From NCBI RefSeq assembly GCF_000378125.1, contig NZ_KB899241.1, forward strand, positions 2,145,652-2,209,651: DNA of 64,000 nucleotides, written 5' to 3'. Below are positions 12,637-41,247 of this stretch, one piece after another; within the stretch, counting starts at the first letter, position 1; every line of letters starts with the position of its first letter. This stretch comes from Rudaea cellulosilytica DSM 22992 (GTDB lineage: Bacteria; Pseudomonadota; Gammaproteobacteria; Xanthomonadales; Rhodanobacteraceae). The position numbers and the translations under genes are program-made. The notes under the pieces were generated by a model. The model was not told the origin of the DNA. It saw only the letters and a program-made list of their open reading frames with translations, and ran no database searches.

Positions 12637-12650
12637 TTGACCTGGGTCAA
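12637..12650 (+). promoter_or_regulatory. FNR/ANR-type box upstream of usp-RNR-like operon
   Basis: TTGAC-CTGG-GTCAA, a perfect 5+4+5 palindrome differing from the FNR consensus only at the two central-flank positions. Its centre is 80 nt before the usp start; with class II spacing, transcription would begin near 12685, and tacgct at 12672-12677 could be the -10. Confidence 0.75.
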
Positions 12651-12723
12651 AGCCCCTTGATCGCCGGCGGCTACGCTTGGGCCCGTGCTATTTCATCCGC
12701 ACGAACGATTCAAGGCCTCAGCC

Positions 12724-13161
12724 ATGTTCAGACACATACTCGTACCCACCGACGGCTCGAAACTGTCGGAAAAAGCCGTCAAACAGGCCGTTCGCCTAGC
12801 TAAACAGCTTGGTGCGCGGATGACCGCGCTTCACGTTATGCCCAAGTTTCATCCTTCGACTTATCAGATGGAGCTGCTGCAGATGACCGTCGGCGACTAC
12901 GAAGAGAGCCGTCAGGACCACGCATCGCAATTTCTGCGCTATGCGGAACGCGCTGCCAGGGTGGCAGGCATCGATTGCGAGGGAAGGAATGTGGTCAGCG
13001 ACCACCCCTACAAAGAGATCGTGAAAGCCGCACAGAAGTACGGCTGCGACCTGATTCTCATGGCCTCGCACGGTCGGCGCGGCATCGAGGGTATTTTGCT
13101 CGGCAGCGAAACGCAGAAGGTGCTGACCCACAGCCACGTGCCTGTCCTGGTCTATCGCTGA
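12724..13161 (+). CDS. Universal stress protein, UspA family (single domain)
   Basis: ATG 12724 (FRHILVPTDGSKLSEKAV) is the typical Usp start; an in-frame ATG 39 nt upstream has no family match. The 145-residue protein ends with the nucleotide-site motif ASHGRRGIEGILLGSETQ, where the usual first Gly of G-2x-G-9x-G(S/T) is Ala; ATP binding is still likely. Usp proteins of this class are induced by low oxygen, starvation and stress. The upstream FNR-type box and the 22-nt gap to the RNR-like gene suggest a two-gene hypoxia-induced operon. It is one of three Usp genes within 11 kb. Confidence 0.93.
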   Translation: MFRHILVPTDGSKLSEKAVKQAVRLAKQLGARMTALHVMPKFHPSTYQMELLQMTVGDYEESRQDHASQFLRYAERAARVAGIDCEGRNVVSDHPYKEIVKAAQKYGCDLILMASHGRRGIEGILLGSETQKVLTHSHVPVLVYR

Positions 13162-13183
13162 ACAGCAGGTCGTCATCAGCATC

Positions 13184-14185
13184 ATGAACCTGATTGCGGA
13201 GAACCAAGGCAGTTCGCCGTTCATCTCGCCCGTCGCTGTCGAAGCCTGGGATACCTGGTTTCGCTGGCGCGAGAACGGAACGCTGCACGACGATACGGTC
13301 GACGCCACGTGGCGGCGCGTGGCGTCGGCGCTCGCCTCAGTCGAACCGGAAGCCGAACGTGCCGCGTTCGAAATCCGCCTGCTCGATGCTTTTGCCAGCT
13401 GGCGCCTCCTGCTCGATGAGCGCCTTCTCGCCACCGCCGGCACGAGCAAGGAATCCTGGCCCGACAACGACCTCGCCGCCGTGTTGAATATCGTCGGTTT
13501 CGTGCGCGGATACGGCACGCCCGCGGCGAAGGTCGATCTTGCCGCAGTGAAGGACTGCGCCGAACTCACGACGCAGGCGCTCGACAATGCGACCCTGCTC
13601 GGAACGCGCACGAAACGGCAACCTAAGAAACTGAGAATCGGCATCATCGGGTTTGCCGAAGCGCTGGCGTTGCTCGGCCTGGACTACAACAGCGTGGAAG
13701 CATGTCGCCAAGCGCAGTCGCTCGCGCAGTCGCTCGCCGAGGGCTGCTTGCGTGCAAGCATCGCACTCGCCGAAATACGTGGGGCGACCATGTGCTGCGA
13801 CGAAGCCTGGATCGAAAGGGCGCGTTTGCGCGGCCTGCCCGACGACTTGATCGAGCGCGCCGGACGACACGGCCTGCGCCATGCAAGTCTGACGTCGATA
13901 AACCCCCAGCCCAAGCTGGCCAGATTCGCCAACGACACGAGCGATGCAGTTCTGCCATTGACCGCCAGCGATGCACTGCTCGCCTATCGCGGATCGTGGC
14001 CTAGTGTGCCGGCGGTCGCCGCGGTTTCCGCGCAGTTGGCAATTCGCGGCGCGATGCAGCCATGGATCGACGAACCGATCTCCGGTCCCGTTCGCACGCT
14101 CTCGAAGCCGACGCCGGCCAGCCATTTGGAGTGGTACGCGCGTTCAATGACGTTGGGACTCGGCGCTCTTTCCTGGACTTTCTGA
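13184..14185 (+). CDS. Core-deleted ribonucleotide-reductase-like protein
   Basis: The 333-residue product resembles two separate parts of a class I/II ribonucleotide reductase large chain joined together. Residues 12-88 (PFISPVAVEAWDTWFRWRE, DATWRRVASALASVE, LLATAGT) match the N-terminal region up to the A-G-T at the start of the barrel. Residues 98-260 (AAVLNIVGFVRGYGTP, RIGIIGFAEALALLGLDYNS, ASIALAEIRGA, HGLRHASLTSINPQPKL) match the late barrel, in which the usual IAPTGT loop has become SINPQP. The roughly 250 residues between them, with the radical cysteine and first redox cysteine, are missing, so it cannot be an active reductase. Placement behind usp and an FNR box points to a role in anoxia, perhaps binding nucleotides or a reductase. 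Confidence 0.7.
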   Translation: MNLIAENQGSSPFISPVAVEAWDTWFRWRENGTLHDDTVDATWRRVASALASVEPEAERAAFEIRLLDAFASWRLLLDERLLATAGTSKESWPDNDLAAVLNIVGFVRGYGTPAAKVDLAAVKDCAELTTQALDNATLLGTRTKRQPKKLRIGIIGFAEALALLGLDYNSVEACRQAQSLAQSLAEGCLRASIALAEIRGATMCCDEAWIERARLRGLPDDLIERAGRHGLRHASLTSINPQPKLARFANDTSDAVLPLTASDALLAYRGSWPSVPAVAAVSAQLAIRGAMQPWIDEPISGPVRTLSKPTPASHLEWYARSMTLGLGALSWTF

Positions 14186-14356: not shown

Positions 14357-14920
14357 CTACAGGGCCAGCGAATGGATCACTTGGGTTGTGTCATCCGGAT
14401 CGGCGCGACGTTCGAAGCCGAGGAACTCCGCCAACTCGCGCATGCTTTCGTTGGCGCGTGCATCGATTGAGTACATGCGCCGATAACCGCGCTGGCGCGC
14501 GATTTCGATCAGATGGCGCATCAACAGGGTAGCAAGTCCCTTGCCCTGCCACTCGTCGGCGACGGCGACGGCGCACTCGCAGCTTCGATCGTCCTGGTCC
14601 GCGCTGAAGCGGGCAACGCCGATCTCGCGCTTGTGTGCGCCATCGGCTACGAGGGCGACGAATGCTGCTTCATGTGCCGGATCCGGGTGGGTCAGACGAT
14701 CAAGCAGTGCCGACCCCGGTGCCGCGATCTCGCCGAGGAACCGGTAGCGACGCGACTGCGGTGACAGCCGCTCGATGAACTCGCGCTCGAGGCCGACATC
14801 TGCAGCCGAGATGGGACGGATCAGTACGGTCGTGCCGTCGCGCAGCCTTTCCTTCCACTCCGGCACGGACGAATCGTTGCTAGCGGTTGGAATCGACGAA
14901 TGTGATTGAGAAAAAACCAT
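14357..14920 (-). CDS. GNAT-family N-acetyltransferase
   Basis: A 187-residue protein with the GNAT fold: beta-strand RDGTTVLIRPISAADVGLE, central AAFVALV, then the acetyl-CoA motif EWQGKGLATLLMRHLIEIA (Q-x-x-G-x-A) and a C-terminal NESMRELAEFLGFE. The N-terminal 'RDGTTVLIRPI' start is shared with the acetyltransferase domain of Pat/PatZ-type protein acetylases, so it may acetylate proteins such as acetyl-CoA synthetase. Transcribed away from hsp20; one FNR-type box lies 123 nt upstream. The first ~20 residues are Ser/Thr-rich and may be extra; a later start is possible. Confidence 0.85.
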   Translation of the reverse strand: MVFSQSHSSIPTASNDSSVPEWKERLRDGTTVLIRPISAADVGLEREFIERLSPQSRRYRFLGEIAAPGSALLDRLTHPDPAHEAAFVALVADGAHKREIGVARFSADQDDRSCECAVAVADEWQGKGLATLLMRHLIEIARQRGYRRMYSIDARANESMRELAEFLGFERRADPDDTTQVIHSLAL

Positions 14921-15036: not shown

Positions 15037-15050
15037 TTGACGCGGATCAA
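15037..15050 (-). promoter_or_regulatory. FNR/ANR-type box, GNAT side of divergent promoter
   Basis: Plus strand TTGAC-GCGG-ATCAA. It lies between the divergent GNAT and hsp20 genes, nearer to the GNAT start (centre 123 nt away). A second box is 55 nt further on, so each direction may have its own site. Confidence 0.6.
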
Positions 15051-15091: not shown

Positions 15092-15105
15092 TTGACCGAG
15101 GTCAA
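15092..15105 (+). promoter_or_regulatory. FNR/ANR-type box upstream of hsp20
   Basis: TTGAC-CGAG-GTCAA, a perfect 5+4+5 palindrome centred about 126 nt before the hsp20 start. Class II spacing would place the -10 near taacct (15128-15133) and leave an untranslated leader of about 85 nt. Confidence 0.7.
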
Positions 15106-15223: not shown

Positions 15224-15673
15224 ATGACATATCTGTCCCATTGGAACCCGATCAGAACCCTGCTGCATGCCCGGCCGAACTTGGACGTCGAAGCCTATTT
15301 GCGTGGTTTCGAACCGCGCGTCGTCTGGGCCGGCCACGATGGCGGGGCATTGGACATCCGCTTGGACTTGAGCGAAGACGAGGTCGCCTATCACGTCAAG
15401 GCCGACATCCCCGGAGTCGACAGGAATGACATCGACCTGCGCGTCGACGGCAACACGATCCATATCGCCGCCGAGGTCAAGCGAGGTCCTGCTGCCAAGC
15501 CCGGCGAAAAGGAGATCTACAGCGAACGTTTCTGCGGATTGGCCAGTCGCACGTTTTCGTTGCCAGGGCGCGTGGACGAGACGAAAGTGACGGCTCACTA
15601 CGAGAACGGCGTCCTGACGCTCACTCTGCCGAAGAAGTCGGAAGGGCAGACTCGCAAGATCGCGATCGACTGA
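15224..15673 (+). CDS. Small heat-shock protein, Hsp20/alpha-crystallin family
   Basis: A 149-residue chaperone with an alpha-crystallin domain at about 45-140: DEVAYHVKADIPGVDRNDID, the beta-strand GNTIHIAAEVK, SRTFSLPGRVDETKVTAHYENGVL (A-x-x-x-n-G-V-L motif) and LPKKSEG near the C-terminus. The classic terminal I-x-I/V is represented by KIAID. It holds unfolding proteins in the cytoplasm. First gene of a probable hsp20-phasin-small membrane protein transcript under an FNR-type box, as in low-oxygen regulons of other proteobacteria. Confidence 0.93.
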   Translation: MTYLSHWNPIRTLLHARPNLDVEAYLRGFEPRVVWAGHDGGALDIRLDLSEDEVAYHVKADIPGVDRNDIDLRVDGNTIHIAAEVKRGPAAKPGEKEIYSERFCGLASRTFSLPGRVDETKVTAHYENGVLTLTLPKKSEGQTRKIAID

Positions 15674-15735: not shown

Positions 15736-16089
15736 ATGAACAAACCGAAATTCGACAACCGTTCCATCAACAACGGCTTTCCTTCGATGCCCGCTTGGAA
15801 CGCACTCGCTGCTGTTTCCGGCCCGCTCGCAGGATGGGCGGATTACGTCGGCCGCCTGCAAAACGAAGCGCTGACCTTCGCTCAGACACGATTCCGCCGC
15901 GAGGTCGACGCAATGGAACGCTTCGCCCGCTGCCGCAAGCCCGAGGAATACGTGGACGCCCAGGCCACATTCCTTGCCCAGACTTTCTCCGACTATGCGA
16001 AGGAAAACCTCAAGGTCGCGGGAATGCTCGGCGACGCCGCGCAATGGGCGCGGGAAAAAATCGCCGAAGCGGGTACCCGCTCGTCTTGA
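15736..16089 (+). CDS. Phasin family protein
   Basis: A 117-residue protein preceded by a strong ribosome site (tgaggag at 15722-15728). It is wholly helical and amphipathic, with the phasin-type run RLQNEALTFAQTRFRREVDAMERFARCRKPEEYVDAQATFLAQTFSDYA (phasin_2 pattern; quoted here in pieces at about residues 41-90). Phasins coat polyhydroxyalkanoate granules; related ones act as chaperones. No PHA synthase is in the window. It lies 62 nt after hsp20, which fits a joint stress-protection role. Confidence 0.8.
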   Translation: MNKPKFDNRSINNGFPSMPAWNALAAVSGPLAGWADYVGRLQNEALTFAQTRFRREVDAMERFARCRKPEEYVDAQATFLAQTFSDYAKENLKVAGMLGDAAQWAREKIAEAGTRSS

Positions 16090-16430: not shown

Positions 16431-17255
16431 TCAGTGGCGCATGAACAGCGGTATCGTCGCCTGCTCGAGCACATAGCGGGTCGCGCCGCCGAAGAACCAT
16501 TCGCTGAAGCGAGTCCTGCCGTAAGCGCCCATGACCAGCACGTCCGCATGAACTTCGCCGGCGATAGCGAGCAACGCTTCGCCTGCCTTGTCGTCGCTGA
16601 CATCGATCAGGCGTTTCTCGATCTTGACCCCGTGCTGCGCCAGATAAGCCTCGACATCGAACGGCGGAATCCGCGTGAAGGTGATAAACGGATCGACGGT
16701 TTCGCCGTGGATCAACACGACGCGCTCGGCGCGCCGCAAAAACGGCAGTGCCGCGTGCACAGCGCGCGCCGATTCCTGTCTGCCGTTCCACGCAATCGCA
16801 ATCGTCCGGAACTTGGCCACGGAGGAACGATCCTCGGGAACGACGATGCAGGGTGCACCGCAGGTCAGCAGGATCTCGCCAACTTGCGCCACTCCGCCCC
16901 ATTCAGTTTCGCCGCGCAGGCCGAGCACGAGCAGGTCGTGCCAGTTGCAGGTTTCTGCCACGGCCTGGCGCGTGCTGGCCTCGATAATCGTCCACTCGTT
17001 CGACTCGATCCCCAGACCGCTAGCCCATGCGCGGAATTTGTCGCGCTGCAAACTTGCAGCGGCGATCTGCTCATCGGTGAACTTGCGGATTTCGGCGAGG
17101 AGCTCCATCGCGGCATACGATGGGACGATCGTCACCGGCTCCTGCACATAAAGCGCATTCAGCGCAGCATCGAACTGCTTCGCCACCTCGGCCGCGTAGC
17201 GCATGCTCGGCGTGAAGGTGGAGTAGTTGCTCGCATAGACCAGAATGTCGCGCAT
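16431..17255 (-). CDS. Tandem-domain universal stress protein
   Basis: ATG 17255 is preceded by a ggag site; upstream codons in the same frame are not Usp-like. The 274-residue chain holds two Usp domains: about 1-140 (MRDILVYASNYSTFTPSMRY...) and about 145-274 (FRTIAIAWNGRQESARAVHAAL...). The second domain keeps a nucleotide-site relative, GAYGRTRFSEWFFGG, in which the final Ser/Thr is Gly; the first domain lacks the motif. Tandem Usps of this type are common in bacteria that cycle between oxic and anoxic states. An FNR-type box lies 65 nt upstream. It is followed by no other gene on its strand for 340 nt. Confidence 0.92.
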   Translation of the reverse strand: MRDILVYASNYSTFTPSMRYAAEVAKQFDAALNALYVQEPVTIVPSYAAMELLAEIRKFTDEQIAAASLQRDKFRAWASGLGIESNEWTIIEASTRQAVAETCNWHDLLVLGLRGETEWGGVAQVGEILLTCGAPCIVVPEDRSSVAKFRTIAIAWNGRQESARAVHAALPFLRRAERVVLIHGETVDPFITFTRIPPFDVEAYLAQHGVKIEKRLIDVSDDKAGEALLAIAGEVHADVLVMGAYGRTRFSEWFFGGATRYVLEQATIPLFMRH

Positions 17256-17313: not shown

Positions 17314-17327
17314 TTGACGCTCGTCAA
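17314..17327 (-). promoter_or_regulatory. FNR/ANR-type box upstream of tandem usp
   Basis: TTGAC-GCTC-GTCAA, symmetric, centred 65 nt before ATG 17255. On the minus strand the sequence aagataac near 17283-17290 sits at the right distance for a -10. Confidence 0.75.
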
Positions 17328-17338: not shown

Positions 17339-19786
17339 TCAGATCGACGCAAATGTTTGCCCGACAATCTCCGCCGGATCGCCGATACCGTCCACGGCGT
17401 CGATTTCGGTGTCGCTGAGCAGATCGGCGAGATCGACATGCAACAGGCGGGACACTTCGCGCACCGCGTGTGCCCAACTGCATCCGTTCGCGAACAGCAT
17501 GCCCTGCATGTCGAGCGTGCCGCCGCGCCCGCGGTAGCCGAGTGCGGCCACGGCGCCGCCCGCGAGCATCGGCTGCAGCAGTCCCACCATGGTTTCGGGA
17601 CGCGTATGGCAGAGCAGTACATGCGTGCTGGTCGCGGCATACAGACCGCGTCCGCAATGGTCCAAACTCGAATGCATATCCTCGGCCGCCGTGCGTCCGC
17701 GGCGGAAGCGCGCCGGTTCCATCAAATAGACCAAGCGATGCGGCACGTCGTGCTGGCGCAGGCGTTTGCAGGCCTTGAGGGCCTCCTGCAACTGACAAGC
17801 ACCTATTGCCGTGATCGTCAGCTCCGCGTCGTCGGGGCGGTGGCCGGCGTGCGGCACGCGAATCCCCCCGTCGGCGACGAGTTCGCACGCGTCGTGCGCG
17901 TCGAACACGGACGGCATCTCGGACTTCGCTGCAACCACCGTGAAAATCTGTCCGTGCGTGCGGTAGACCTCGCGCATCACCGCTGCCGCGCTGTTGTAGT
18001 CGGGCGGGAACATCACCCTGGCGACGTCGGACGGCTCGCCGAGCATCGCCTCGGCCATGCTCGTATCCTGGTGCGACAGCTCGTTCTTGCCGTTCTCCCA
18101 AGTATGCGAGGTCAGCACGACGGGCACGGACAACCAGCGCGCGGGATGCCCCGCCGCCTTGGCATGTGCGGCAAAAATGATTTCCTGGCGCAGCGCGGAT
18201 TGCATTTTCACTGCGAACGCTTCGTAGGTCACGGCGATATTGATGCCGCCCTTGTTGCCGAGCGCGGCGCAGACGACGGCCTCCTCGTTGAGCGCAGTGA
18301 TGACGCCGCCATCGACTGCTTCTTGGTCAGCCAACTCGACGTCGGTTACGCGGTGTTTGAGCAATTCAAGCGTGCGCACCATGTGGTTCGAGCGGCTTTC
18401 GTCCGGATTGCCGAAACGCGCGCGCAGATGCGGTGCTGCCTTGACCGCCGCGACGAAGCCGTCGTCGACGGCCTGCATCGCGGATACGGCGGGCGTTGCA
18501 GGCCCCGCCTCGCGCCATGCGGGGACGACCTCGATCGGCGCCACGTCGCGATGCGCGATGGGGTTGTCGCGCTCGCGAACGCGAGCACGATGCGCCCCAA
18601 AACAGGCGATTGACGCCTGCAACTCGGTCGGAGCCACCCAGAGCCGTCGCGTCGACTCGTTGAAATGCGCCGCGGCCGTCGACGACGAATGTGGATTCTC
18701 CCCAAGCGGCGTGCCGTGCGCGGCGTTCGTGCCTTCGCCGTAGAACCCCGCGCCCTTCGGCGCGACGGCGATGCCGTACGGCAGCGGCGCGGGATAGCGC
18801 AGCCGGTCCGCGTGCGCACGATCGATACAGTGTTGCAATCGCTCTTCCATCGCCCAGATCGCCCAGACGAAAGCCGCCGGATCGCGGCCGTCGAACACGA
18901 CCGGGTCGTAGCCGTTGATCTTCAGATGCTGCGACAGCCAGGTCGGTCCGCCTTCCTGCGAGGCCATCGTGCGCTGGTCGATGCGGCGACCGTTGGAGAT
19001 CAGGATCGGAGTCACCATGCCGCAGTCCTGCGCGCGCCACCAGCGCGGCGCCCAGTCGCCGCCACGCTGCTCCTCGAACGCACCGTCGGACAGGAAGGCG
19101 GTCAGCCGCTCCCCAGGGAGTGGCATATGCGCATAGAGCAGTTCGGCGAAGCCGAGGAAACCGCCTTCGAGAATCGCACCCGCGGTGTGCGCATTGACGT
19201 GGCTGCCGAGCGGCGACTCCGGCGAGCCGTCCGCTGCCAGCCGGTAGCTGTAGAAATCCTGGGCCATGCGCGAGAGCTGCGCGTCTGACACGCCGTAGCG
19301 CTCGGCATGCGCCGGCGTCATGTTGCCGACCAGGACGTTGAGAGCGTCGACCGCCGACACACAATGTCCCTGTCCCATAAGCCAGCCGCGCGTGCAGCCG
19401 GTCAGAGCGTTTAGGGCGAGATAGCCCGCGTAGGCCGGCACCATGTTGAGCGAGCCGCCCATATGGCCTTGCGGATTGGATTTGAAATCCTCGGCTTGCA
19501 ACGGCCGGCCGTCGAGATGGACGTGCTTTGCATAGGTCATATGCGCGACGAGCCACATCGCCGCGCTGGTCACGCGATCGAGCGCCTTGAGCATTTTGAA
19601 AAACGGCACGCCATCGCCGGCGATATGGCGGGCGGTCAGCGCCTGATACATGTCATACACGCGCAGTTGCGTCTCCGCGCGATGGCGGATCGCGCCATAG
19701 CCCTCGGCCCAGGCGGCGAAATCGGGATTCTTGCCGCGCAGTACCTGCGCGTCGTCTTCGACGGAAAATAATTCTACGCTGCGCAT
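17339..19786 (-). CDS. Divergent phosphoketolase-family protein
   Basis: The start at ATG 19786 (RSVELFSVEDDAQVL) leaves the FNR-type box outside the gene; the frame stays open to 19888 without family similarity. The 815-residue protein follows the whole phosphoketolase layout (XFP_N, XFP, XFP_C): NMVPAYAGYLALNALTG, HTAGAILEGGFLGFAELLYA, SHTWENGKNELSHQDTSMAE and RVMFPPDYNSAAAVMREVY. Phosphoketolases split xylulose-5-P or fructose-6-P to acetyl phosphate with thiamine diphosphate. The canonical GPGHGGP is GQGHCVSAV here, and the GDGEAETG cofactor motif is SDGAFEEQ, so substrate or activity may differ; some databases name this branch 'xylulose 5-phosphate 3-epimerase'. The divergent acetyl-phosphate genes argue that it makes acetyl phosphate. 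Confidence 0.8.
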   Translation of the reverse strand: MRSVELFSVEDDAQVLRGKNPDFAAWAEGYGAIRHRAETQLRVYDMYQALTARHIAGDGVPFFKMLKALDRVTSAAMWLVAHMTYAKHVHLDGRPLQAEDFKSNPQGHMGGSLNMVPAYAGYLALNALTGCTRGWLMGQGHCVSAVDALNVLVGNMTPAHAERYGVSDAQLSRMAQDFYSYRLAADGSPESPLGSHVNAHTAGAILEGGFLGFAELLYAHMPLPGERLTAFLSDGAFEEQRGGDWAPRWWRAQDCGMVTPILISNGRRIDQRTMASQEGGPTWLSQHLKINGYDPVVFDGRDPAAFVWAIWAMEERLQHCIDRAHADRLRYPAPLPYGIAVAPKGAGFYGEGTNAAHGTPLGENPHSSSTAAAHFNESTRRLWVAPTELQASIACFGAHRARVRERDNPIAHRDVAPIEVVPAWREAGPATPAVSAMQAVDDGFVAAVKAAPHLRARFGNPDESRSNHMVRTLELLKHRVTDVELADQEAVDGGVITALNEEAVVCAALGNKGGINIAVTYEAFAVKMQSALRQEIIFAAHAKAAGHPARWLSVPVVLTSHTWENGKNELSHQDTSMAEAMLGEPSDVARVMFPPDYNSAAAVMREVYRTHGQIFTVVAAKSEMPSVFDAHDACELVADGGIRVPHAGHRPDDAELTITAIGACQLQEALKACKRLRQHDVPHRLVYLMEPARFRRGRTAAEDMHSSLDHCGRGLYAATSTHVLLCHTRPETMVGLLQPMLAGGAVAALGYRGRGGTLDMQGMLFANGCSWAHAVREVSRLLHVDLADLLSDTEIDAVDGIGDPAEIVGQTFASI

Positions 19787-19852: not shown

Positions 19853-19866
19853 TTGATGCACATCAA
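19853..19866 (-). promoter_or_regulatory. Consensus FNR box for phosphoketolase
   Basis: TTGAT-GCAC-ATCAA, an exact match to the FNR consensus, centred 73 nt before ATG 19786. On the minus strand taggct (19825-19830) lies about 30 nt past the box centre, where a -10 is expected for a class II site. Confidence 0.85.
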
Positions 19867-19914: not shown

Positions 19915-19928
19915 TTGATCTCGGTCAA
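19915..19928 (+). promoter_or_regulatory. FNR box for phosphotransacetylase-ackA operon
   Basis: TTGAT-CTCG-GTCAA, one step from consensus, centred about 75 nt before the chosen start at 19996. A good -10, tatgct, occupies 19950-19955. It is back-to-back with the phosphoketolase box (62 nt centre to centre), so one regulator would switch on both arms of the pathway. Confidence 0.82.
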
Positions 19929-19995: not shown

Positions 19996-20985
19996 ATGAT
20001 GACTTTGGATATCGCAGCCATGAAGGACGCCATACCTTCGTCGTCGGAAGACGGCGCACAAATTCTGCGCATCGGGAACGATACGCTGATCGACTGCGCG
20101 CGCGCGCTCGGCCCGATCCGCGTCGGCGTCGTGCATCCGTGCGATAAGCCGAGCTTGGAGGCGATGCTCGATGCAAGGCGGGCAGGGCTCATCGAGCCCA
20201 TCATCGTCGCGCCGCGGGCGAAGATTGCAGCCGTCGCGCAGCGCGCCGGGCTCGTCGTGGACGACGTGCCGATCGAAGACGTGCCGCACAGTCATGCGGC
20301 TGCCGCAGCGGCAGCTCGGCTCGCCGCGTCGGGCCGCGTCGAGGCGCTGATGAAAGGCAGCCTGCACACTGACGAGCTGATGAGCGCGGTGCTCGATCAC
20401 GATGCCGGGTTGCGCACGGCCCGCCGCGTCTCGCACTGTTATCTGATGCAGACGCAGGCCTATCCGCGGCCGTTCATCATCACCGACGCGGCGATCAATA
20501 TCGCGCCGACGCTCGAAGAGAAAGCAGACATCGTGCGCAATGCGATCGAGCTTGCGCAAACGATCGATGTGACGACTCCGCGCGTGGCGATCTTGGCCGC
20601 GGTCGAAACGATCAATCCACGCATGCAGGCCACGCTCGACGCGGCCGCGTTATGCAAGATGGCCGAGCGCGGCCAGATCACTGGCGCGATCCTGGACGGC
20701 CCGCTCGGATTCGACAATGCGATCTCGATCGATGCTGCGCGCATCAAGGGCATCGACTCGCCGGTCGCAGGGCGCGCCGACGTGCTCGTCGTGCCCGACC
20801 TGGAAAGCGGCAATATGCTTGCCAAGCAACTGGAGTATTTCGGCCAAGCCGCAAGCGCGGGAATCGTCATGGGTGCGCGCGTGCCGGTGATCCTGACGAG
20901 CCGAGCCGATTCACCGCTCACGCGCATCGCCTCCTGCGCGCTGGCGGTGCTCGTCGCGCATCGCCGTCGCACGGCCAAGCCATGA
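19996..20985 (+). CDS. Phosphate acetyl/butyryltransferase (short Pta/Ptb type)
   Basis: The frame is open from 19915, but the FNR-type box and -10 lie there, so a later ATG is used: 19996 (MMTLDIAAMKD) or 20020. The ~329-residue protein matches the PTA_PTB domain: GPIRVGVVHPCDKPSLEAML, LMKGSLHTDELMSAVL, RRVSHCYLM, FIITDAAINIAPTLEEKADIV, TPRVAILAAVETINPRMQAT, GAILDGPLGFDNAIS and a late IVMGARVPVILTSRAD. It moves the acyl group between phosphate and CoA. Its stop overlaps ackA by 4 nt. In this setting it probably converts acetyl phosphate and acetyl-CoA. Confidence 0.88.
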   Translation: MMTLDIAAMKDAIPSSSEDGAQILRIGNDTLIDCARALGPIRVGVVHPCDKPSLEAMLDARRAGLIEPIIVAPRAKIAAVAQRAGLVVDDVPIEDVPHSHAAAAAAARLAASGRVEALMKGSLHTDELMSAVLDHDAGLRTARRVSHCYLMQTQAYPRPFIITDAAINIAPTLEEKADIVRNAIELAQTIDVTTPRVAILAAVETINPRMQATLDAAALCKMAERGQITGAILDGPLGFDNAISIDAARIKGIDSPVAGRADVLVVPDLESGNMLAKQLEYFGQAASAGIVMGARVPVILTSRADSPLTRIASCALAVLVAHRRRTAKP

Positions 20986-24182: not shown

Positions 24183-24184
24183 CC

Positions 24185-24601: not shown

Positions 24602-24632
24602 CGAACAGCGTCATCCCAGCGAGGAGAAGATC

Positions 24633-25499: not shown

Positions 25500-25522
25500 A
25501 CATATCCTTCCGTGCCTGACCG

Positions 25523-27416: not shown

Positions 27417-27428
27417 GGACCTATTCCG

Positions 27429-31056: not shown

Positions 31057-31068
31057 TCCGGCGGCGAC

Positions 31069-33689: not shown

Positions 33690-34414
33690 CTTCGCCGTTC
33701 ACCATCGTCGGTGCGTTCGCCTTCGGCCTGATCGCGAGCGGCCATTGCCTGCTCATGTGCGGCGGCATCGCTGGCGCGCTCGGCGCGGTGACGACACGGC
33801 GCACCGACGCAGGCACACCGTGGCTCCTCCTCTCGGGTTATCAACTCGGCCGCATCACGAGCTATGCCGTCGCCGGCGTCCTCATCGGCAGCATCGGCGC
33901 CGGCATCGTCCAATTCGTCGATCAGGAATCGGTGCGCATCGCGCTGCGCTGGCTCACCGCACTCGTCTTCGCCGCATTGGCGCTCAACCTGTTGCGCAGC
34001 GGCCGCGGCTTCGACTTCGCGCTGGGCCACTCGATCTGGGCGCGGCTCGCGCCGTTCGCGCGGCGCTTCGTACCGGTGCGCACGCTACCGCGCGCATTCG
34101 CCCTCGGCGCGCTGTGGGGCTGGATGCCGTGCGGCCTCGTCTATTCGGTGCTGATCGTCGCCGCGCTCGGTGCCAATCCGCTGCAGAGCGGGGCAATCAT
34201 GCTCGCGTTCGGCCTCGGCACGGTGCCCGCCGTGCTCGCGGGCGCATTCGGCGCGCAGCGCGCGATGCGCTGGCTCGGGCAGCCGCGGCTGCGCACCGGT
34301 GTCGCCGGGCTGTTCTTCGCCTTCGCCGTCCTCACCGCGAGCGGGCCGTGGATTGCCGCGCACGGCATGGCGGCAGCGGCGCGTTGGCTGCCGTTCGACT
34401 GCACGATGCGCTGA
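33686..34414 (+). CDS. SafE/TauE-type membrane protein linked to cbb3 biogenesis
   Basis: GTG 33686 overlaps the ccoS stop. The 242-residue protein has six membrane helices and the COG2836 signature: GHCLLMCGGIAGAL near residue 20, SGYQLGRITSYAVAG, and WGWMPCGLVYS, with paired Met/Cys that may bind copper. The family is fused or linked to copper and cbb3 assembly genes in many proteobacteria. A direct substrate is not known. Last gene of the overlapping cco run that begins at ccoN. Confidence 0.88.
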   Translation: MTSPFTIVGAFAFGLIASGHCLLMCGGIAGALGAVTTRRTDAGTPWLLLSGYQLGRITSYAVAGVLIGSIGAGIVQFVDQESVRIALRWLTALVFAALALNLLRSGRGFDFALGHSIWARLAPFARRFVPVRTLPRAFALGALWGWMPCGLVYSVLIVAALGANPLQSGAIMLAFGLGTVPAVLAGAFGAQRAMRWLGQPRLRTGVAGLFFAFAVLTASGPWIAAHGMAAAARWLPFDCTMR

Positions 34415-34433: not shown

Positions 34434-34447
34434 TTGATCTGGATCAG
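34434..34447 (+). promoter_or_regulatory. FNR-type box directly before hemN
   Basis: TTGAT-CTGG-ATCAG (last base departs from consensus). The centre lies only about 42 nt before ATG 34482, which is the exact class II distance to a transcription start, so transcription would start at or next to the start codon. Confidence 0.78.
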
Positions 34448-34481: not shown

Positions 34482-35891
34482 ATGACCACGCCCATGTCAT
34501 CCGCCATTCCGCAGTTCGACGCCGAACTGATCGCCCGTCACGATGTCGCCGGACCGCGCTACACCTCGTATCCGACCGCGCCGCAATTCCATGTCGGCTT
34601 CGACGAATTGGCGTTCCGTGCCGTTGCATGCGCATCGAACGAAGATCCGATTCCGCGCCGCCTCTCGCTCTACGTGCACGTACCGTTCTGCGCGAGTCCG
34701 TGCTTCTACTGCGGCTGCACGCGCGTGATCACGCGTGATCACGGCAAGGCCGAGATCTACCTCGACCATCTGTATCGCGAGATCGAACTCGTCGCGCCAC
34801 TGTTCGACCGCGATCGCCCGCTGGTGCAGCTGCACTTCGGCGGCGGCACGCCGAATTTCCTAGATGACATGCAGATGAGCGAGCTGCTCGAATCGCTGGC
34901 GCGGCAGTTCTCCTTCAGCCGCGACGCCGATCGCGAATTCGGCATAGAACTCGACCCGCGCTGGTGCGGACCGGACTACGTGCGCATGCTCGCCACCCAT
35001 GGCTTCAACCGCATTTCCGTCGGCATCCAGGATTTCGACCGTACGGTGCAGGCCGCGATCAATCGCATCCAGTCCGTGGAAGAAACCCGTGCAGTGCTCG
35101 ACGCGGCGCGCGCGAGCGGCTTTCGTTCGACCAGCGTCGATCTGATCTACGGCCTGCCAAAGCAGACCGTCGCAAATTTCCGCCGCACGCTCGAACAAGT
35201 GATCGAGCTGGCGCCCGACCGGGTCGCGACCTATGCCTACGCACACCTGCCCGATCGCTTCAAGGCGCAGCGCCGAATTAATGCCGCCGACCTGCCGAGC
35301 GCCGCGCAGCGCCTCGAACTGCTCGGACTCACGGTCGAAATGCTGACCGCCGCAGGCTATCGCTACATCGGCATGGACCACTTCGCCCGCCCCAATGACG
35401 ACCTCGCGCGCGCGCAGGAAGCCGGCACGCTGCAGCGCAATTTCCAGGGCTATTCCACGCACGGCGACTGCGACCTGATCGGCCTCGGCGTCAGCGCGAT
35501 CTCGCACGTCGGCGCCACGTTCAGTCAGAACGAGCGCGAACTGCGCGACTACTACGCCGCGCTCGAAGAGGGGCGCCTGCCAATCGTGCGCGGCATAGAA
35601 CTCGATGATGACGACGCGCTGCGCGCCGACGTGATCCAACAGCTGATGTGTCAAGGTCGTCTCGACATTGCTTCGGTCGAAGCGCGCCATCGCATCGACT
35701 TCACCAACTATTTCGGTGTCGAACTCGAACGTCTGCGCATCGCGGCCAACGACGGTTTGGTCGAAATCACGCCGGAGAACCTTGCCGTCACGCCGCGCGG
35801 TCGTTTCCTGCTGCGCAATATCGCCATGTGCTTCGACGCTTACCTGCATGCGCCCGCTGCCGTGGCGGCGAGGTATTCACGCGCGCTGTAG
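34482..35891 (+). CDS. hemN: Oxygen-independent coproporphyrinogen III dehydrogenase
   Basis: ATG 34482 gives 469 residues; ATG 34494 is an alternative. Radical-SAM cluster CASPCFYCGC (C-x3-C-x2-C plus the extra Cys of HemN), GPRYTSYPTAPQF near the start, FGGGTPNFL, RISVGIQDFD, DLIYGLPKQT and DHFARPNDDL. It converts coproporphyrinogen III to protoporphyrinogen IX without oxygen, supplying haem for cbb3 at low oxygen. hemN is a standard FNR/ANR target. Standing alone, 67 nt after the cco run. Confidence 0.96.
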   Translation: MTTPMSSAIPQFDAELIARHDVAGPRYTSYPTAPQFHVGFDELAFRAVACASNEDPIPRRLSLYVHVPFCASPCFYCGCTRVITRDHGKAEIYLDHLYREIELVAPLFDRDRPLVQLHFGGGTPNFLDDMQMSELLESLARQFSFSRDADREFGIELDPRWCGPDYVRMLATHGFNRISVGIQDFDRTVQAAINRIQSVEETRAVLDAARASGFRSTSVDLIYGLPKQTVANFRRTLEQVIELAPDRVATYAYAHLPDRFKAQRRINAADLPSAAQRLELLGLTVEMLTAAGYRYIGMDHFARPNDDLARAQEAGTLQRNFQGYSTHGDCDLIGLGVSAISHVGATFSQNERELRDYYAALEEGRLPIVRGIELDDDDALRADVIQQLMCQGRLDIASVEARHRIDFTNYFGVELERLRIAANDGLVEITPENLAVTPRGRFLLRNIAMCFDAYLHAPAAVAARYSRAL

Positions 35892-35933: not shown

Positions 35934-35947
35934 TTGATCTGCCGCAA
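35934..35947 (+). promoter_or_regulatory. Degenerate FNR-type half-site before ompW
   Basis: TTGAT-CTGC-CGCAA: the left half is perfect, the right half keeps only the CAA-type end. Its centre is about 64 nt from ATG 36004, the same spacing as the usp and ccoN boxes, which is the main reason to list it. Confidence 0.4.
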
Positions 35948-36003: not shown

Positions 36004-36615
36004 ATGAAGCTTCTCGTCTCTGCGATCGCCCTCGCTCTCGTCGTGTCTGCTCCGCTCGTCCATGCGCAGGATCCGGATTGGATCGTCAAGGTCGGCGTGC
36101 ATACGGTCGATCCGAAATCGGACAACGGCACGCTGGCCGGTGGCACGCTGAAGAGCGACGTCGGTTCCGACGTCAAGCCGACGATCACGGCCGAATACCT
36201 GCTGGCGCCCGAATGGGGCGTCGAAATACTCGCCTCGCTGCCGTGGAAACACGACGTCAAGCTCAACGGCGTCCTCGCGGCGACGACCAAGCAATTGCCG
36301 CCGACGGTTAGCGTGCAATACCACTTCAATCCGACCGGCAAGGTTTCGCCGTTCGTCGGCCTCGGTCTCAACTACACGATATTCTTCAGCGAACACACGA
36401 CGGGGCCCTTGGCGGGCACCAAGCTGAGCCTCGACAACTCTCTCGGTATCGCCGCGCACGGCGGCATCGATTTCCGCATCGACGAGCGCTGGCTCGTCAC
36501 GCTCGACGCGCGCTGGATCAAGATCGGCACCGACGCCAAGGTCAACGGTACCAAGGTCGGCACGGTAAACATCGATCCGTTCGCCTACGGCATCGCCGTC
36601 GGCTACCGGTTCTAA
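36004..36615 (+). CDS. ompW: OmpW-family outer-membrane protein
   Basis: A 203-residue precursor with Sec signal (MKLLVSAIALALVVSAPLVHA) and an eight-strand barrel. OmpW features are DWIVKVGVHTVDPKSDNG near the mature start, PTITAEYLLAPEWGVEILASLPW, KQLPPTVSVQYHF, SPFVGLGLNYT and a terminal FAYGIAVGYRF with C-terminal Phe. It forms a narrow hydrophobic channel; in E. coli it is FNR-regulated. It shares a 14-nt gap with the next gene, so they may be co-transcribed. Confidence 0.93.
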   Translation: MKLLVSAIALALVVSAPLVHAQDPDWIVKVGVHTVDPKSDNGTLAGGTLKSDVGSDVKPTITAEYLLAPEWGVEILASLPWKHDVKLNGVLAATTKQLPPTVSVQYHFNPTGKVSPFVGLGLNYTIFFSEHTTGPLAGTKLSLDNSLGIAAHGGIDFRIDERWLVTLDARWIKIGTDAKVNGTKVGTVNIDPFAYGIAVGYRF

Positions 36616-36629: not shown

Positions 36630-37697
36630 ATGGACGCATACGAGCAGGCGAACGAGCATCCGATCATCAGCACGGATGTGGTCATCGTCGGCGCAGGCCC
36701 GGTGGGGCTGTTTCAGGTGTTCGAACTCGGCCTGCTCGGCCTGCAGGCGCACGTCGTCGACAGCATGGCGCAGCTCGGCGGCCAATGCATCGAGTTGTAT
36801 CCCGACAAGCCCATCTACGACATTCCGGCGATTCCGGTATGCACCTCGAAGGAACTGGTCGACCGGCTGGTCGAACAGATCAAGCCGTTCGCGCCGCAAT
36901 TCCATCTCGGCGAAGAAGTTACCGAGATGGAGCGCACGCCGTCGGGTCGCTTCCACGTGCGTACGAGCGCCGGTACGCGATTCGATGCCGGCGCCGTGAT
37001 CATCGCCGCCGGCGTCGGCGCATTCCGCCCGCGCCGGCTGCGCGTGCCCGGTGCGGAGCGGCTCGAAGGCGAAACCCTGCACTACAAGGTGACCGATCCG
37101 AGCCTGTTTGCCGACAAGGACATCGTCATTGCCGGCGCCGGTGATTCGGCACTGGACTGGGCGCTCGAACTGCACGACAAGGTGCGCAGCCTCGTGCTCG
37201 TGCACCGCTCGCAGTCGTTCCGTGCCGCGCCGAGCAAAGTGCGGCAGATGGAGCGCCTGTGCGAGGAAATGAAGATGCAGTTCCTCGAAGGCGACATCAC
37301 CGGGCTCGAAGCCGACGGCAAAGCCCTGTCCTCGATCCTCGTGCGCTCGGCCAGCGGCCTGACCAACCGCGTCGATGCGCAGCACCTGCTCGTGTTCTGG
37401 GGGCTGCATCCCAACCTCGGCCCGATCGCCACGTGGGGGCTGAACCTGGACAAGAACCAGATCGAGACGGATACCGCGACGTTCGCCACGAACGTGCCCG
37501 GCGTGTTCGCGGTCGGCGACATCAACACCTATCCGGGCAAGAAAAAGCTCATCCTGAGCGGCTTCCACGAGGCCGCGCTCGCCGCGTTCGGCGTGCGCGA
37601 ATACCTGTCGCCCGGCGAGAAGGTCCACCTGCAATACACGACGACGAGCCCGATCATGCACAAGCGGCTCGGCGTCGCCGCCACATTGGCCGCATAG
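36630..37697 (+). CDS. Ferredoxin/flavodoxin-NADP+ reductase (thioredoxin-reductase-like)
   Basis: A 355-residue flavoprotein: FAD site VVIVGAGPVGLFQVFELGLLG, GGQCIELYPDKPIYDIPA, NADP site IVIAGAGDSALDWALEL, and late FAVGDINTYPGKKKLILSG. It lacks the CxxC disulfide of thioredoxin reductases, as in the YumC-type ferredoxin reductases, and matches their length. It moves electrons between NADPH and ferredoxin or flavodoxin, which could feed HemN and other radical-SAM or iron-sulfur enzymes. Strong ribosome site (ggagag) before ATG 36630. Confidence 0.9.
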   Translation: MDAYEQANEHPIISTDVVIVGAGPVGLFQVFELGLLGLQAHVVDSMAQLGGQCIELYPDKPIYDIPAIPVCTSKELVDRLVEQIKPFAPQFHLGEEVTEMERTPSGRFHVRTSAGTRFDAGAVIIAAGVGAFRPRRLRVPGAERLEGETLHYKVTDPSLFADKDIVIAGAGDSALDWALELHDKVRSLVLVHRSQSFRAAPSKVRQMERLCEEMKMQFLEGDITGLEADGKALSSILVRSASGLTNRVDAQHLLVFWGLHPNLGPIATWGLNLDKNQIETDTATFATNVPGVFAVGDINTYPGKKKLILSGFHEAALAAFGVREYLSPGEKVHLQYTTTSPIMHKRLGVAATLAA

Positions 37698-37788: not shown

Positions 37789-38526
37789 ATGGTTTCGACG
37801 GTGCCCGCTTCGCCTGAGTCTTTGCCGCATCTGCTTGTCGTGGACGACGAAGGCGAGATCGCCGATTCGATCGTGCGCTATTTCGGCAGATACGGCTTCC
37901 GCGTCAGCACTGCCGGCGATGGCGCGGCGATGCGCGAGGTCGTGCAAAGCGACACGGTCGACGTGATCCTGCTCGACCTCGGCTTGCCGCGCGAAGACGG
38001 CTTCGCGCTGACCCGCTGGCTGCGCGAACGCTGGCGCGGCGCGATCATCATCGTCACCGGGCGCGGCGAGTCGGTGGACCGGGTCGTCGGCCTCGAGCTC
38101 GGCGCCGACGACTATGTGACCAAGCCTTTCGATCTGCGCGAACTGCTGGCTCGCGTGCGCAGCGTATTGCGGCGAACCACGGCCGCCCCTGCGCCATCGA
38201 CCATGTCCTCCGGCTACGCGTTCCCCGGTTTTCGGCTCGATCTCGACCGGCGTAGGCTCACCGGAGCCAACGGAACCGAGGTGCCGCTGACTTCGGGCGA
38301 ATTCGACCTGCTTTGCGTGCTTGTCCGCCATCCGAACCGTGTGCTTTCGCGCGACGCGATCATGGACGAGATGCACGGCCGCACGAGCGGACCGTTCGAT
38401 CGTGCGATCGACGTGCAAATCGGCCGCCTGCGGCGCAAAATCGAGGCCGACTCGTCCAACCCGCAGCTGATCAAATCGGTGCGCAACGCGGGTTACTTGT
38501 TCGCGGCACGAGTGGACCGCGCTTAG
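37789..38526 (+). CDS. OmpR-family response regulator
   Basis: A 245-residue regulator with a receiver domain (LLVVDDEGEIADSIV; phosphorylation site Asp-63 in ILLDLGLPREDG; Lys in VTKPFDLREL) and an OmpR/PhoB winged helix from about 135 (FRLDLDRRRLTGANG, VLSRDAIMDEMHG, VQIGRLRRKIEAD). It is followed 18 nt later by a hybrid kinase that should phosphorylate it. Its place beside an FNR-like regulator suggests a role in respiratory control, unproven. Confidence 0.94.
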   Translation: MVSTVPASPESLPHLLVVDDEGEIADSIVRYFGRYGFRVSTAGDGAAMREVVQSDTVDVILLDLGLPREDGFALTRWLRERWRGAIIIVTGRGESVDRVVGLELGADDYVTKPFDLRELLARVRSVLRRTTAAPAPSTMSSGYAFPGFRLDLDRRRLTGANGTEVPLTSGEFDLLCVLVRHPNRVLSRDAIMDEMHGRTSGPFDRAIDVQIGRLRRKIEADSSNPQLIKSVRNAGYLFAARVDRA

Positions 38527-38544
38527 TCACTCCAGGGGACCGTC

Positions 38545-40503
38545 ATGTATCGGGAATTGTTCGAGATATCTCCCGACGCGATGATCGCGGTGGACGCGAA
38601 CAGCTGCATCGTGCGCGCGAACGCGCAGGCCGAGCGCCTGTTCGGCTACAGCGAAACGCAGCTGCTCGGCAGTGGCATCGAAATGCTGATTCCCGCACGG
38701 GCGCGCAACAAACACCAGGCGCATGTTGCGGGCTACACAGCGAACCCTCGCGTGCGCTCAATGGGCACCGGGCAAGAACTCGTTGGACTGCGCCGCGACG
38801 GCAGCGAATTTCCGGTCGAGATCGCGCTCAGCCCGATGACCACGCCGGAGGGACGCATCGTCGTCGCCGCGATTCGCGATATCTCCGAAACGCAGCGCGC
38901 GCGGCAGGCGTTGGCACGCGCGCGCTACGACAAGGTCATGGCCCAGGTCGGCCAGCTCTTTCTCACCTCGCCCAATCTCGACGATGCCATCGCGCGTATT
39001 CCTGCGCTGGTGGTCGAGGCGCTCGGCGTCGAGGCTGCCGCGATCGTGTTCAAACTGCCGCTACGCGAACGCCTGCAGGTGCGCGCCTCGTTTGGCCTCG
39101 ACACGCATACGCTGTCTTCGGTGATCGATCTGTTGAATCCCGGACTGCTCGACAGCCTCGCCGCCACCGATCAAACGATTTCACCCGCCCACGGCGAAGT
39201 GCTGCGCGAGGCGGGATTTGTCTCGAGCGTTGTGATTCCGTTGCCGGACCCGCGCGCGCCGGCCTCGGCGCTACTGGCGATGGCGCGCGAGCCGCGTCAT
39301 TTCGATCACGATGCGCTGCATTTCCTGCACACGATCGCGACCACCCTTGCGGCTACCTTGCAGCGTATCCGCACCGAGGAACAGCTCTCGCACGCGCAAC
39401 GGCTCGAAGCGGTCGGCCAGCTCACCGGCGGCATCGCGCACGATTTCAACAATCTGCTCACCGTGGTCTCGGCGAACCTGCAGATTCTCGAAGACGATCT
39501 CGCCGGCCGGCCCGAGCAGCTCGAGACGATCGCCATCGCTCTGCGTGCGGTCGGTCGCGGCGCCGAGCTGACGCGTAAGCTGCTCGCGTTCGCCCGACGC
39601 CAGCAACTCTCTCCGCGCGCCTGCGACTCGAAGGAACTGCTCGAAGACGTCGGCGGTCTGCTCCGGCGCGCGTTGGGCGAAGCGATCGATTTACATATCG
39701 TCTGTCCGGCGGACATGCCGCACGTGTTCGTCGATCCAGGCCAACTCGACGCGGCGCTAGTCAACCTTGCGATCAACGCGCGCGACGCCATGCCGCGCGG
39801 CGGCCGTCTGCACATCAGCGCGCGCGTCGGTGCGATCGAGTCTGGCGATGCGACCGGCGACGCCAAGCCGGGCCAATATATCGTCGTTGCCGTGCGCGAT
39901 ACCGGCTTCGGCATGACTCCCGACGTGCTCGCGCGCGCGCTCGAGCCGTTCTTCACTACCAAAGGGCAAGGCAAGGGTTCAGGTCTGGGCCTGTCGATGG
40001 TGTACGGCTTCGTCACCCAGTCGGGCGGCCATTTGAATATCGAAAGCCGGCTCGGCTACGGCACCAATGTGGAGCTCTACCTTCCGGTGATCGCCGCGGA
40101 AGCCGAAGCGCTGGACAAGCGCGCCGTGGCGCCCGCGAACGCGCACGGCCACGAAACCATTCTCGTCGTCGAAGACGATGCCGACGTGCGCCGTGCCGCG
40201 CTCGCCATCCTGCGTTCGCTCGGCTATACGACGCTGCCGTGTGTCGACGCCGATGAGGCATTGCGGACGATTCCGCTGCATTCGGAGATCGCGCTGGTGT
40301 TTTCCGACATCATGCTCGGCAGCGGCATGAGCGGTGTCGAACTGGCCGAAGAGATCCGTGTGCGCTGGCCGAGGTTGCCGATTCTGCTTACCTCGGGCGA
40401 CGAGCGCTCCTTGCAGAGCAGCGAAGCCTTCGACCTGTTGCGCAAGCCCTATCGTCGCGAAGAGTTGTCGGTCGCAATCCGCCGCCAACTCGATCCGAAC
40501 TGA
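38545..40503 (+). CDS. Hybrid sensor histidine kinase (PAS-GAF-HisKA-HATPase-REC)
   Basis: A soluble 652-residue kinase with ribosome site aggggacc. Parts: PAS domain (about 1-115, FEISPDAMIAVDANSCIVRANAQAE), GAF-type region (130-275), HisKA with phospho-His-299 in GGIAHDFNNLL, ATPase (about 395-515, N-box NLAINARDAMPRGG, G-boxes DTGFGM and GSGLGLSMVYG), and a C-terminal receiver (540-650, Asp-588 in FSDIMLG). Lacking membrane helices, it senses something inside the cell. No haem-PAS His is obvious, so FixL-like oxygen sensing is not supported by sequence alone. Confidence 0.93.
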   Translation: MYRELFEISPDAMIAVDANSCIVRANAQAERLFGYSETQLLGSGIEMLIPARARNKHQAHVAGYTANPRVRSMGTGQELVGLRRDGSEFPVEIALSPMTTPEGRIVVAAIRDISETQRARQALARARYDKVMAQVGQLFLTSPNLDDAIARIPALVVEALGVEAAAIVFKLPLRERLQVRASFGLDTHTLSSVIDLLNPGLLDSLAATDQTISPAHGEVLREAGFVSSVVIPLPDPRAPASALLAMAREPRHFDHDALHFLHTIATTLAATLQRIRTEEQLSHAQRLEAVGQLTGGIAHDFNNLLTVVSANLQILEDDLAGRPEQLETIAIALRAVGRGAELTRKLLAFARRQQLSPRACDSKELLEDVGGLLRRALGEAIDLHIVCPADMPHVFVDPGQLDAALVNLAINARDAMPRGGRLHISARVGAIESGDATGDAKPGQYIVVAVRDTGFGMTPDVLARALEPFFTTKGQGKGSGLGLSMVYGFVTQSGGHLNIESRLGYGTNVELYLPVIAAEAEALDKRAVAPANAHGHETILVVEDDADVRRAALAILRSLGYTTLPCVDADEALRTIPLHSEIALVFSDIMLGSGMSGVELAEEIRVRWPRLPILLTSGDERSLQSSEAFDLLRKPYRREELSVAIRRQLDPN

Positions 40504-40515
40504 CGGCGTCGAACT

Positions 40516-41247
40516 TTACGCTGCTTTGTCCTCGCAATGGATGACGCCGTCCAGCGCCGCCATATCGAGGATACGGATCTCGCGCCATTGCACGTCGATG
40601 CAGCCTTGGCCAGCCAGTCGCGTCAACGCACGTGTGACCGTCTCGTGCTTGAGCGCGAGGAAGCTGCCGATATCGGCGCGGCCCATGCGCAGCACGAAAT
40701 GGCGCGGACTGAAGCCGAGCGCTTCGTGGCGCGAGGCCAAGTCGAGAAGAAACGCGGCAACGCGTTGTTCCGCGCTGAGCGAGTTCAGCGCGAGCTTCCA
40801 CGACCGGTCGCTGCGGATCTCCGCGGCCAGGGCCCAGGTGAGGCGCTCCTGCAGTTCGGGCATCTGCGCGCAGGCGCGAAGTATCGCCGGGTAGGGCAGC
40901 TCCCACACGCCGCTCGTTTCGAGCGCGACGACGTCGCATTCGTGGGTCGCCGCGCCGATCGATTCGATGCCGACAAGGTCGCCGCGCATGCGAAATCCGG
41001 TGACCTGCTCGCGGCCGTCTTCGGCGACCAGGCAGGTCTTGAGAAAACCGACATTGACCAGATAGAGCGCGTTGAACGGCTGCCCGGCGCGATACAGATA
41101 CTGCCCCGCCGTGAGCTTGCGCTGGACAACGTTCACGTACTTGCTTAGCACCTCGATATCGATCGGCGCCGCAACCGCTTGCGCCGCCGTCAATGTCGCA
41201 CGCCGCGCTTTCGTGGGGAGTATCGAGATTTCTGCGACAGGGCTCAT
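40516..41247 (-). CDS. CRP/FNR-family regulator without iron-sulfur cysteines
   Basis: ATG 41247 (SPVAEISILPTKARR) gives 243 residues. A cyclic-nucleotide-type beta barrel (about 45-125: GQYLYRAGQPFNALYLVNVGFLKT, GDLVGIESIG) leads to the dimer helix and a winged helix with recognition motif HETVTRALTRLAGQG: Glu-202, Thr-205 and Arg-206 fit the E-x-x-(S/T)-R that reads TTGAT. The N-terminal 40 residues have no cysteine (cysteines are at 72, 104, 126, 216 and 238), so an FNR-type [4Fe-4S] site is absent. This is the DNR/FixK type of layout. A good candidate reader of the boxes at 12.6-35 kb, or a partner of a separate oxygen-sensing FNR. Confidence 0.9.
   Translation of the reverse strand: MSPVAEISILPTKARRATLTAAQAVAAPIDIEVLSKYVNVVQRKLTAGQYLYRAGQPFNALYLVNVGFLKTCLVAEDGREQVTGFRMRGDLVGIESIGAATHECDVVALETSGVWELPYPAILRACAQMPELQERLTWALAAEIRSDRSWKLALNSLSAEQRVAAFLLDLASRHEALGFSPRHFVLRMGRADIGSFLALKHETVTRALTRLAGQGCIDVQWREIRILDMAALDGVIHCEDKAA

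Follow-up and report, generated by a model that had tools for sequence, protein, structure and literature searches.

Which regulator reads a cluster of FNR/FixK-type palindromes, and to what signal does it answer, when the FNR-like protein encoded beside them lacks the ligands of an iron-sulphur (Fe-S) cluster? The question is raised by a block at positions 12637 to 41247 of a 64,000-nucleotide stretch (hereafter the window) of Rudaea cellulosilytica DSM 22992, contig NZ_KB899241.1, positions 2,145,652 to 2,209,651 of the forward strand. An earlier note, made from the letters alone, had described this block as a single box-marked low-oxygen programme with an oxygen-sensing FNR as its regulator. 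The programme itself was borne out, as the boxes mark cbb3 oxidase genes, hemN, ompW, acetate kinase, hsp20 and three universal stress protein genes (usp). The proposed sensor was not: the regulator, clFNR, has no cysteine cluster, and sensing more probably falls to the haem-PAS kinase encoded next to it. Our data make it probable that this is a hypoxia island controlled, outside rhizobia, by a relay of the hFixL-FxkR type, whose effector is derived from FNR instead of being a rhizobial FixK.

The nine boxes of the form TTGAY-N4-RTCAR reported at 12637, 15037, 15092, 17314, 19853, 19915, 23613, 25921 and 34434 were all verified, and no other of this form was found in the 64 kb, in agreement with the earlier description. 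Eight of the nine are perfect (TTGAY-N4-RTCAA), with spacer letters varying among them, while box 34434 terminates in CAG; a degenerate copy at 35934 (TTGATCTGCCGCAA) has a single half-site broken. Counted strand by strand, the window held 17 matches, against a mean of 0.55 and a maximum of 4 in shuffled windows. Box density across the genome, proposed at the time as a check, proved unequal: of the 33 perfect palindromes in the 4.34 Mb, eight belong to the window island and a further eight to a cluster on contig C2 (70409-82586), which leaves 17 in other places. The densest 15 kb contained eight, whereas 2000 random placements peaked at four, which rules out chance clustering. According to our own gene calls, on which the intergenic or genic status of boxes rests, 15 of the 16 island boxes lay outside called genes, the remaining one being located in a cytochrome b561 gene, compared with four of the 17 other boxes. 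A fifth of these 17, at C4:186391, falls where the called starts of two divergent genes overlap.

The position of the boxes relative to their genes was equally regular. With the start codons chosen in this analysis, the distance from box centre to start codon was 63.5 to 80.5 nucleotides (nt) in 7 of the 11 window pairs, much as had been claimed for most centres (64-80 nt), and 53.5, 123.5, 125.5 and 137.5 nt in the remainder. Most of the box-gene assignments made earlier could be kept, but box 34434 precedes hemN and 35934 precedes ompW, and no box belongs to the ribonucleotide reductase (RNR)-like gene itself, which starts at 13184, after the end of usp1 at 13161, behind box 12637. Box 23613 serves two directions, usp3 and a sulphur operon. 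A -10-like hexamer, YANNNT, was present 21 or 22 nt past the box in all 11 pairs, degenerate copy 35934 included, against 0 or 1 of 11 for offset pairs touching neither 21 nor 22; this motif was picked after inspecting the sequences, and the stricter TANNNT occurs in 5 of the 11. A larger set of 192 box-gene segments covered both islands as well as relatives and named loci, with repeats identical over the first 60 nt dropped and some boxes counted in two orientations. Here TANNNT was counted 17 times at offset 21, 15 times at 22 and 6 times at 23, against 0-4 times at any other single offset from 5 to 49, so that the triplet 21-23 accounted for 38 of the 192 segments and other triplets for 0-5. 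A box centred at -41.5 is the geometry of class II FNR promoters, and the spacing of the predicted window sites fits this mode of activation.

The front end of the putative relay occupies the end of the block. An FxkR-like OmpR-type response regulator (37822-38526, plus strand; assigned by domains and homology) is followed by an hFixL-like hybrid kinase (38545-40503, plus strand) with a FixL-type PAS, a weak GAF, HisKA, HATPase and receiver domains. Next come clFNR (40516-41247, minus strand; sequence, structure comparison and tree) and, upstream of it, a K-box, GTTACA-N4-GTTACA (41339-41354, minus strand; motif and published consensus). In sequence comparisons the kinase PAS resembled the haem PAS of FG214 and FixL, and the first 32 matches in a fold search with the PAS model were all chains of the haem PAS proteins FixL, FG214 or DosP, with FG214 having the highest identity in that search. 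The residue aligned to the FixL haem histidine, which we take to be the haem ligand of FixL, was retained in all 18 kinases covering that position; haem binding by the window kinase would be consistent with this. The GAF domain after the PAS is under the Pfam cut-off here and clear in a Variovorax homologue that aligns over the full length.

This module is conserved. At least 22 named loci were recorded, four of which (L104, L105, L116 and L123) are apparently identical to loci of relatives; among the 22 named-locus matches listed, the kinase lay beside clFNR in 20, and kinase and regulator together in 19, the exceptions being L110 (a 4-kb contig), L120 and L114 (whose contig stops within the kinase). 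These loci were from Rhodanobacter, Dyella, Frateuria, Dokdonella, Tahibacter, Luteibacter, Luteimonas, Lysobacter, Pseudoxanthomonas and Rudaea, presumably all members of the Xanthomonadales. When a regulator and a hybrid kinase from an R. leguminosarum plasmid were searched in the Rudaea genome, the window regulator (49%) and the window kinase (47%) came first; the 25 matches listed in a regulator search of plasmids were from Sinorhizobium and Ensifer.

The K-box repeat, GTTACA-N4-GTTACA, is described as the FxkR site in the available portions of two papers (PMC4999443, PMC7888657). Of the 41 regions upstream of clFNR, 40 (35 of the 36 distinct ones, as five duplicate others) matched TGTTAC-N4-TGTTAC in at least 10 of its 12 positions, compared with about 0.1% of shuffles; L121 fell outside the search range, its TGTTAC lying farther upstream. 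In the Rudaea genome the exact repeat occurs once, at the clFNR promoter, and one-mismatch versions at two more places. In each of three rhizobial plasmid loci, a K-box separates the regulator gene from the FixK-type gene, and boxes lie nearby. In 18 of the 36 distinct regions (for example L119) the K-box is preceded by a loose TTGA-N6-TCAA box, whose start is 23-43 nt farther upstream; this box is absent at this place from the window genome and perhaps serves the divergent gene or a feedback.

As for clFNR, the CxxC...C motif is missing and a tryptophan occupies the fourth cysteine position; lacking Fe-S ligands, the protein probably does not sense oxygen by itself. Members of its group (at least 48% identity) were found in 20 of 119 genomes, its own included, with the cysteine motif in none of the 20 and the kinase adjacent in all. 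The ten paralogues examined at about 37-42% identity all carry the motif, and that kinase is adjacent to none of them. Some FNR-like match was present in 99 of the 119 genomes, and 30 of those loci were inspected for cysteines. A class-level search gave clFNR matches at 1e-45 in 124 of 274 genomes; all 29 other loci examined carry the motif (28 by pattern, L205 separately), with the kinase adjacent to none of these 29 within loci of about 3-3.7 kb. In a FastTree phylogeny of 65 proteins, rooted on the CRP-like protein of the same genome, the 20 clFNR grouped together (0.979), beside the Variovorax protein (0.788) and then all 40 FNRs (0.906), with three rhizobial FixK outside. Since the likeness to the rhizobial cascade covers the front end but not the effector, clFNR is FixK-like in role and not a member of that clade: it appears to work like FixK, yet to belong with the FNRs. 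A cysteine-less FNR homologue had been encountered by a 2021 study in a metagenome-assembled genome of Xanthomonadales and, according to the part of its text available, was set aside (PMC8510549).

Within the family, boxes were also denser in genomes with clFNR. With rounded genome sizes and uncorrected for relatedness, the median was 5.84 boxes per Mb in 18 genomes with clFNR vs 4.12 in 53 without (p 0.0016), while a reversed-motif control gave 0.73 vs 0.67 (p 0.49). Genome G060 has a single FNR-like match, and 16 of its 24 boxes surround the matching gene at 1.99-2.14 Mb; G014, of the same genus as the window genome, has no FNR-like match at 1e-10 and 20 scattered boxes, at most two per 15 kb. 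The palindrome TTGACACGGATCAA or its complement occurs in four copies in G014 (contigs C8, C11 and C12), perhaps as part of a repeat.

Several observations weigh against an oxygen-responsive relay of the hFixL-FxkR type. Many genomes without clFNR also have boxes, as their median indicates. clFNR shares 27-31% identity with rhizobial FixK and stands outside their clade, and the Variovorax module has no recognisable K-box (best 8 of 12). The runner-up to the window regulator in the R. leguminosarum search was close (46% vs 49%), and the names FxkR and hFixL do not appear in the record of the rhizobial genes, which are so called here because of their domains, the K-box and a neighbour of FixK type. 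The window kinase has a glutamine where FixL has its distal arginine. Finally, the PAS of highest identity in the fold search, that of FG214, belongs to a protein described in the available text as redox-responsive, with haem mainly in bis-histidine form (PMC13060918), so that the signal could be redox, and oxygen as the ligand is not proven.

These last two points lend some substance to the alternative that survives best, namely that the relay is real but responds, in place of oxygen, to redox state, nitric oxide or a different haem ligand, and that the island is a general energy-stress programme. The redox activity reported for the FG214 haem PAS with its two histidines and the weak GAF domain, which could supply a second signal, would both accommodate it, but the gene set (cbb3, hemN, ackA, hsp20 and usp) is that of a micro-oxic regulon, and we consider this alternative unlikely, though deserving of attention. 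That a 4Fe-4S oxygen-sensing FNR or ANR drives the boxes directly is far less credible. The boxes do match the FNR/ANR consensus, and FNR is the nearest solved structure to clFNR, but the CxxC...C motif is missing from clFNR in every one of its 20 genomes, and the window protein has the tryptophan at the fourth cysteine position. Moreover, four Crp/Fnr genes of the 99.99% complete Rudaea genome exceed the Pfam cut-off, and a single FNR-like match was obtained there at 1e-10, a canonical FNR gene being searched for and not found; the proposal is largely refuted. The other three Crp/Fnr genes (two in tandem, one CRP/Clp-like) were rejected as box readers, their recognition helices being judged by eye.

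The promoters themselves were compared between species. Those of usp1 and the phosphoketolase-like gene retain the box and the -10-like stretch in three species while their flanks have diverged; the usp2 box is retained in three species and the usp3 box in both species compared. The usp1 box at 12637 is also present in genomes G010 and G002, and the GNAT/hsp20 intergenic region aligned with G010 but not with G002. That the boxes are relics or background, clustered through duplication of one island segment, is hardly tenable: 13 of the 17 non-island boxes do lie inside called genes and look like background, but the island boxes just named stand fixed between diverged flanks, and the eight spacers are unlike one another.

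Under the hFixL-FxkR-type relay that we favour, the hybrid kinase would sense a drop in oxygen, or the redox state of its haem, through the FixL-type haem PAS and would phosphorylate the FxkR-like OmpR-type regulator. The phosphorylated regulator would bind the K-box and switch on clFNR, which in turn would bind the TTGAY-N4-RTCAR boxes centred near -41.5 and turn on both islands. The expected output would comprise a high-affinity oxidase, haem synthesis, ATP from acetyl phosphate, chaperones, stress proteins and a core-less RNR-like protein.

The nearest described parallel is the hFixL-FxkR-FixK cascade of Rhizobiaceae (available portions of PMC7888657 and PMC4999443), which has in common with the window a hybrid FixL-type kinase, K-box, anaeroboxes and cbb3 targets; neither this parallel, nor the K-box, nor the second island had been seen in the earlier note. 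The window regulator is 49-58% identical to the regulators of three rhizobial loci and one Variovorax locus, and the window kinase is, by sequence and predicted fold, a hybrid one with a FixL-type haem PAS and a receiver. Neighbours of the R. leguminosarum locus include genes for phosphoketolase, acetate kinase, metallo-beta-lactamase (MBL), BON, Hsp20, alcohol dehydrogenase (ADH), usp and a P-type ATPase; of these, BON, usp and MBL also accompany the Sinorhizobium and Ensifer loci, and a Variovorax record shows the same regulator-kinase-Crp/Fnr order amid usp, BON and phosphoketolase genes. Differences lie in the gammaproteobacterial host, the kinase with one PAS and a weak GAF, the FNR-derived effector outside the FixK clade and the lack of any FnrN/FNR partner found in the Rudaea genome. 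Judged by titles and abstract openings, the hFixL papers listed all concern rhizobia, legume symbiosis or plant microbiomes, and none of them announces the cascade outside rhizobia.

Other systems are more distant. In the accessible part of a report on Bradyrhizobium FixLJ-FixK2 (PMC9104804), acetate kinase, phosphoketolase, an MBL hydrolase, Hsp20 and usp are FixK2-dependent, several with a TTGA-type motif; however, the window regulator is OmpR-type and not FixJ, and FixK2 has its own cysteine switch. The likeness to the low-oxygen-activated (lxa) locus of Burkholderia cenocepacia, drawn earlier, holds at the level of the gene kinds named in the available portions of the papers (six usp, alpha-crystallin and a BON protein, up at low oxygen; PMC6127331, PMC9104464, PMC3759415), but the closest match is the rhizobial cascade. 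In its accessible part the 2013 paper found no classical cbb3 oxidase in Burkholderia, and the one FNR-like B. cenocepacia protein examined carries the cysteine motif; about 107 kb from a single unannotated record of B. cenocepacia did not show the lxa locus itself. Canonical FNR/ANR and clFNR are of one fold family, and the predicted clFNR sites fit the canonical box type and class II spacing, but clFNR lacks the cluster ligands.

The gene content of the island was established from domain and family matches, and its boxes from motif and distance. The box at 12637-12650 (plus strand; FNR/FixK-type, or anaerobox, kept in G010 and G002) precedes usp1 (12724-13161, plus; Pfam Usp 6e-36) and the RNR-like gene (13184-14185, plus). 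Boxes at 15037-15050 (minus) and 15092-15105 (plus) precede, respectively, a GNAT acetyltransferase (14357-14920, minus; domain match) and the genes for an Hsp20 small heat-shock protein (15224-15673, plus; Pfam HSP20 2.7e-19) and a phasin (15736-16089, plus; Pfam Phasin_2 8.7e-6, barely above cut-off). The tandem gene usp2 (16431-17255, minus; two Usp stretches) and a divergent phosphoketolase-like gene (17339-19786, minus; Pfam XFP 5.6e-38) have boxes at 17314-17327 and 19853-19866 (both minus), each also assigned by conservation. The phosphoketolase-like protein scores far under every NCBIfam phosphoketolase cut-off, which leaves its reaction uncertain. The box at 19915-19928 (plus) serves pta-ackA, encoding a phosphate acetyl/butyryltransferase (19996-20985, plus; family match) and an acetate/propionate kinase (20982-22178, plus; TIGR00016 above cut-off).

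Box 23613-23626, to which no strand was assigned, separates usp3 (23134-23556, minus; Pfam Usp 3.4e-24) from the sulphur operon (23757-25864, plus; domain matches to Sulf_transp, DUF6691, a Blh-like MBL dioxygenase and an ArsR-type regulator). The Blh-like dioxygenase matches profile positions 135-423 only, so that the sulphur-transferase part seems absent. The box at 25921-25934 (plus) precedes ccoNOQP in the cbb3 block (25992-34414, plus; ccoN, ccoO, ccoQ, ccoP, CcoG, P-type ATPase, CcoS and a DsbD_2 protein, by domain or NCBIfam), in which two small ORFs had no family match. Further on are the box at 34434-34447 (plus; TTGATCTGGATCAG) for hemN, the oxygen-independent coproporphyrinogen oxidase gene (34494-35891, plus; TIGR00538 above cut-off), and the degenerate box at 35934-35947 (plus) before the gene for an OmpW family protein (36004-36615, plus; domain match), followed by that for a pyridine nucleotide-disulphide oxidoreductase (36630-37697, plus; domain match).

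The RNR alpha-like protein without a catalytic core, conserved as it is, belongs to the island. It matched the Pfam lgN and lgC profiles, with lgC positions 1-230 missing and the lgN match below cut-off, and alignment with RNR relatives of about 600 residues showed that the N-terminal helical part and the distal RNR barrel are retained. In alignments with full-length RNRs, the active-site cysteine region was absent from the window protein and from six relatives. Its predicted fold matches RNRs (pLDDT 78.8), and a PDB sequence search with the protein gave no match. RNR-like matches occurred in 14 of the 119 genomes, its own included, and that of G097, with a frame of 604 residues, is perhaps a full-length RNR. 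Coordinates place the gene next to clFNR, in divergent orientation, in 10 of these 14 genomes. Core-less family members are found at the window locus and at L085, L087, L089, L090, L095, L098, L100, L102 and L103. Across the class, matches at 1e-20 were obtained in 46 of 274 genomes, most of them in frames of about 600 residues or longer with the look of full-length RNRs; 29 loci were examined.

The second box island of the same genome (C2:70409-82586, locus L017) holds eight perfect palindromes and may likewise be under clFNR control, as its boxes suggest. Its genes include usp genes, BON, ADH, PolX, CarS-like, cytochrome b561, MgtC/DUF4010 and a cation P-type ATPase.

More tentatively, the hypoxia island and its hFixL-FxkR front end may have spread across Alpha-, Beta- and Gammaproteobacteria with replacement of the output gene, which would be FixK in rhizobia and an independently decayed FNR in Xanthomonadales and Variovorax; the core-less RNR-like protein may then be a regulatory pseudo-enzyme tying the supply of DNA precursors to oxygen. 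If the proposed relay is correct, it leads to direct predictions concerning the K-box, the two islands and the single effector. It would also provide a natural case of FNR boxes outliving the oxygen-sensing FNR, and a relay known from root nodules would extend to free-living soil gammaproteobacteria.

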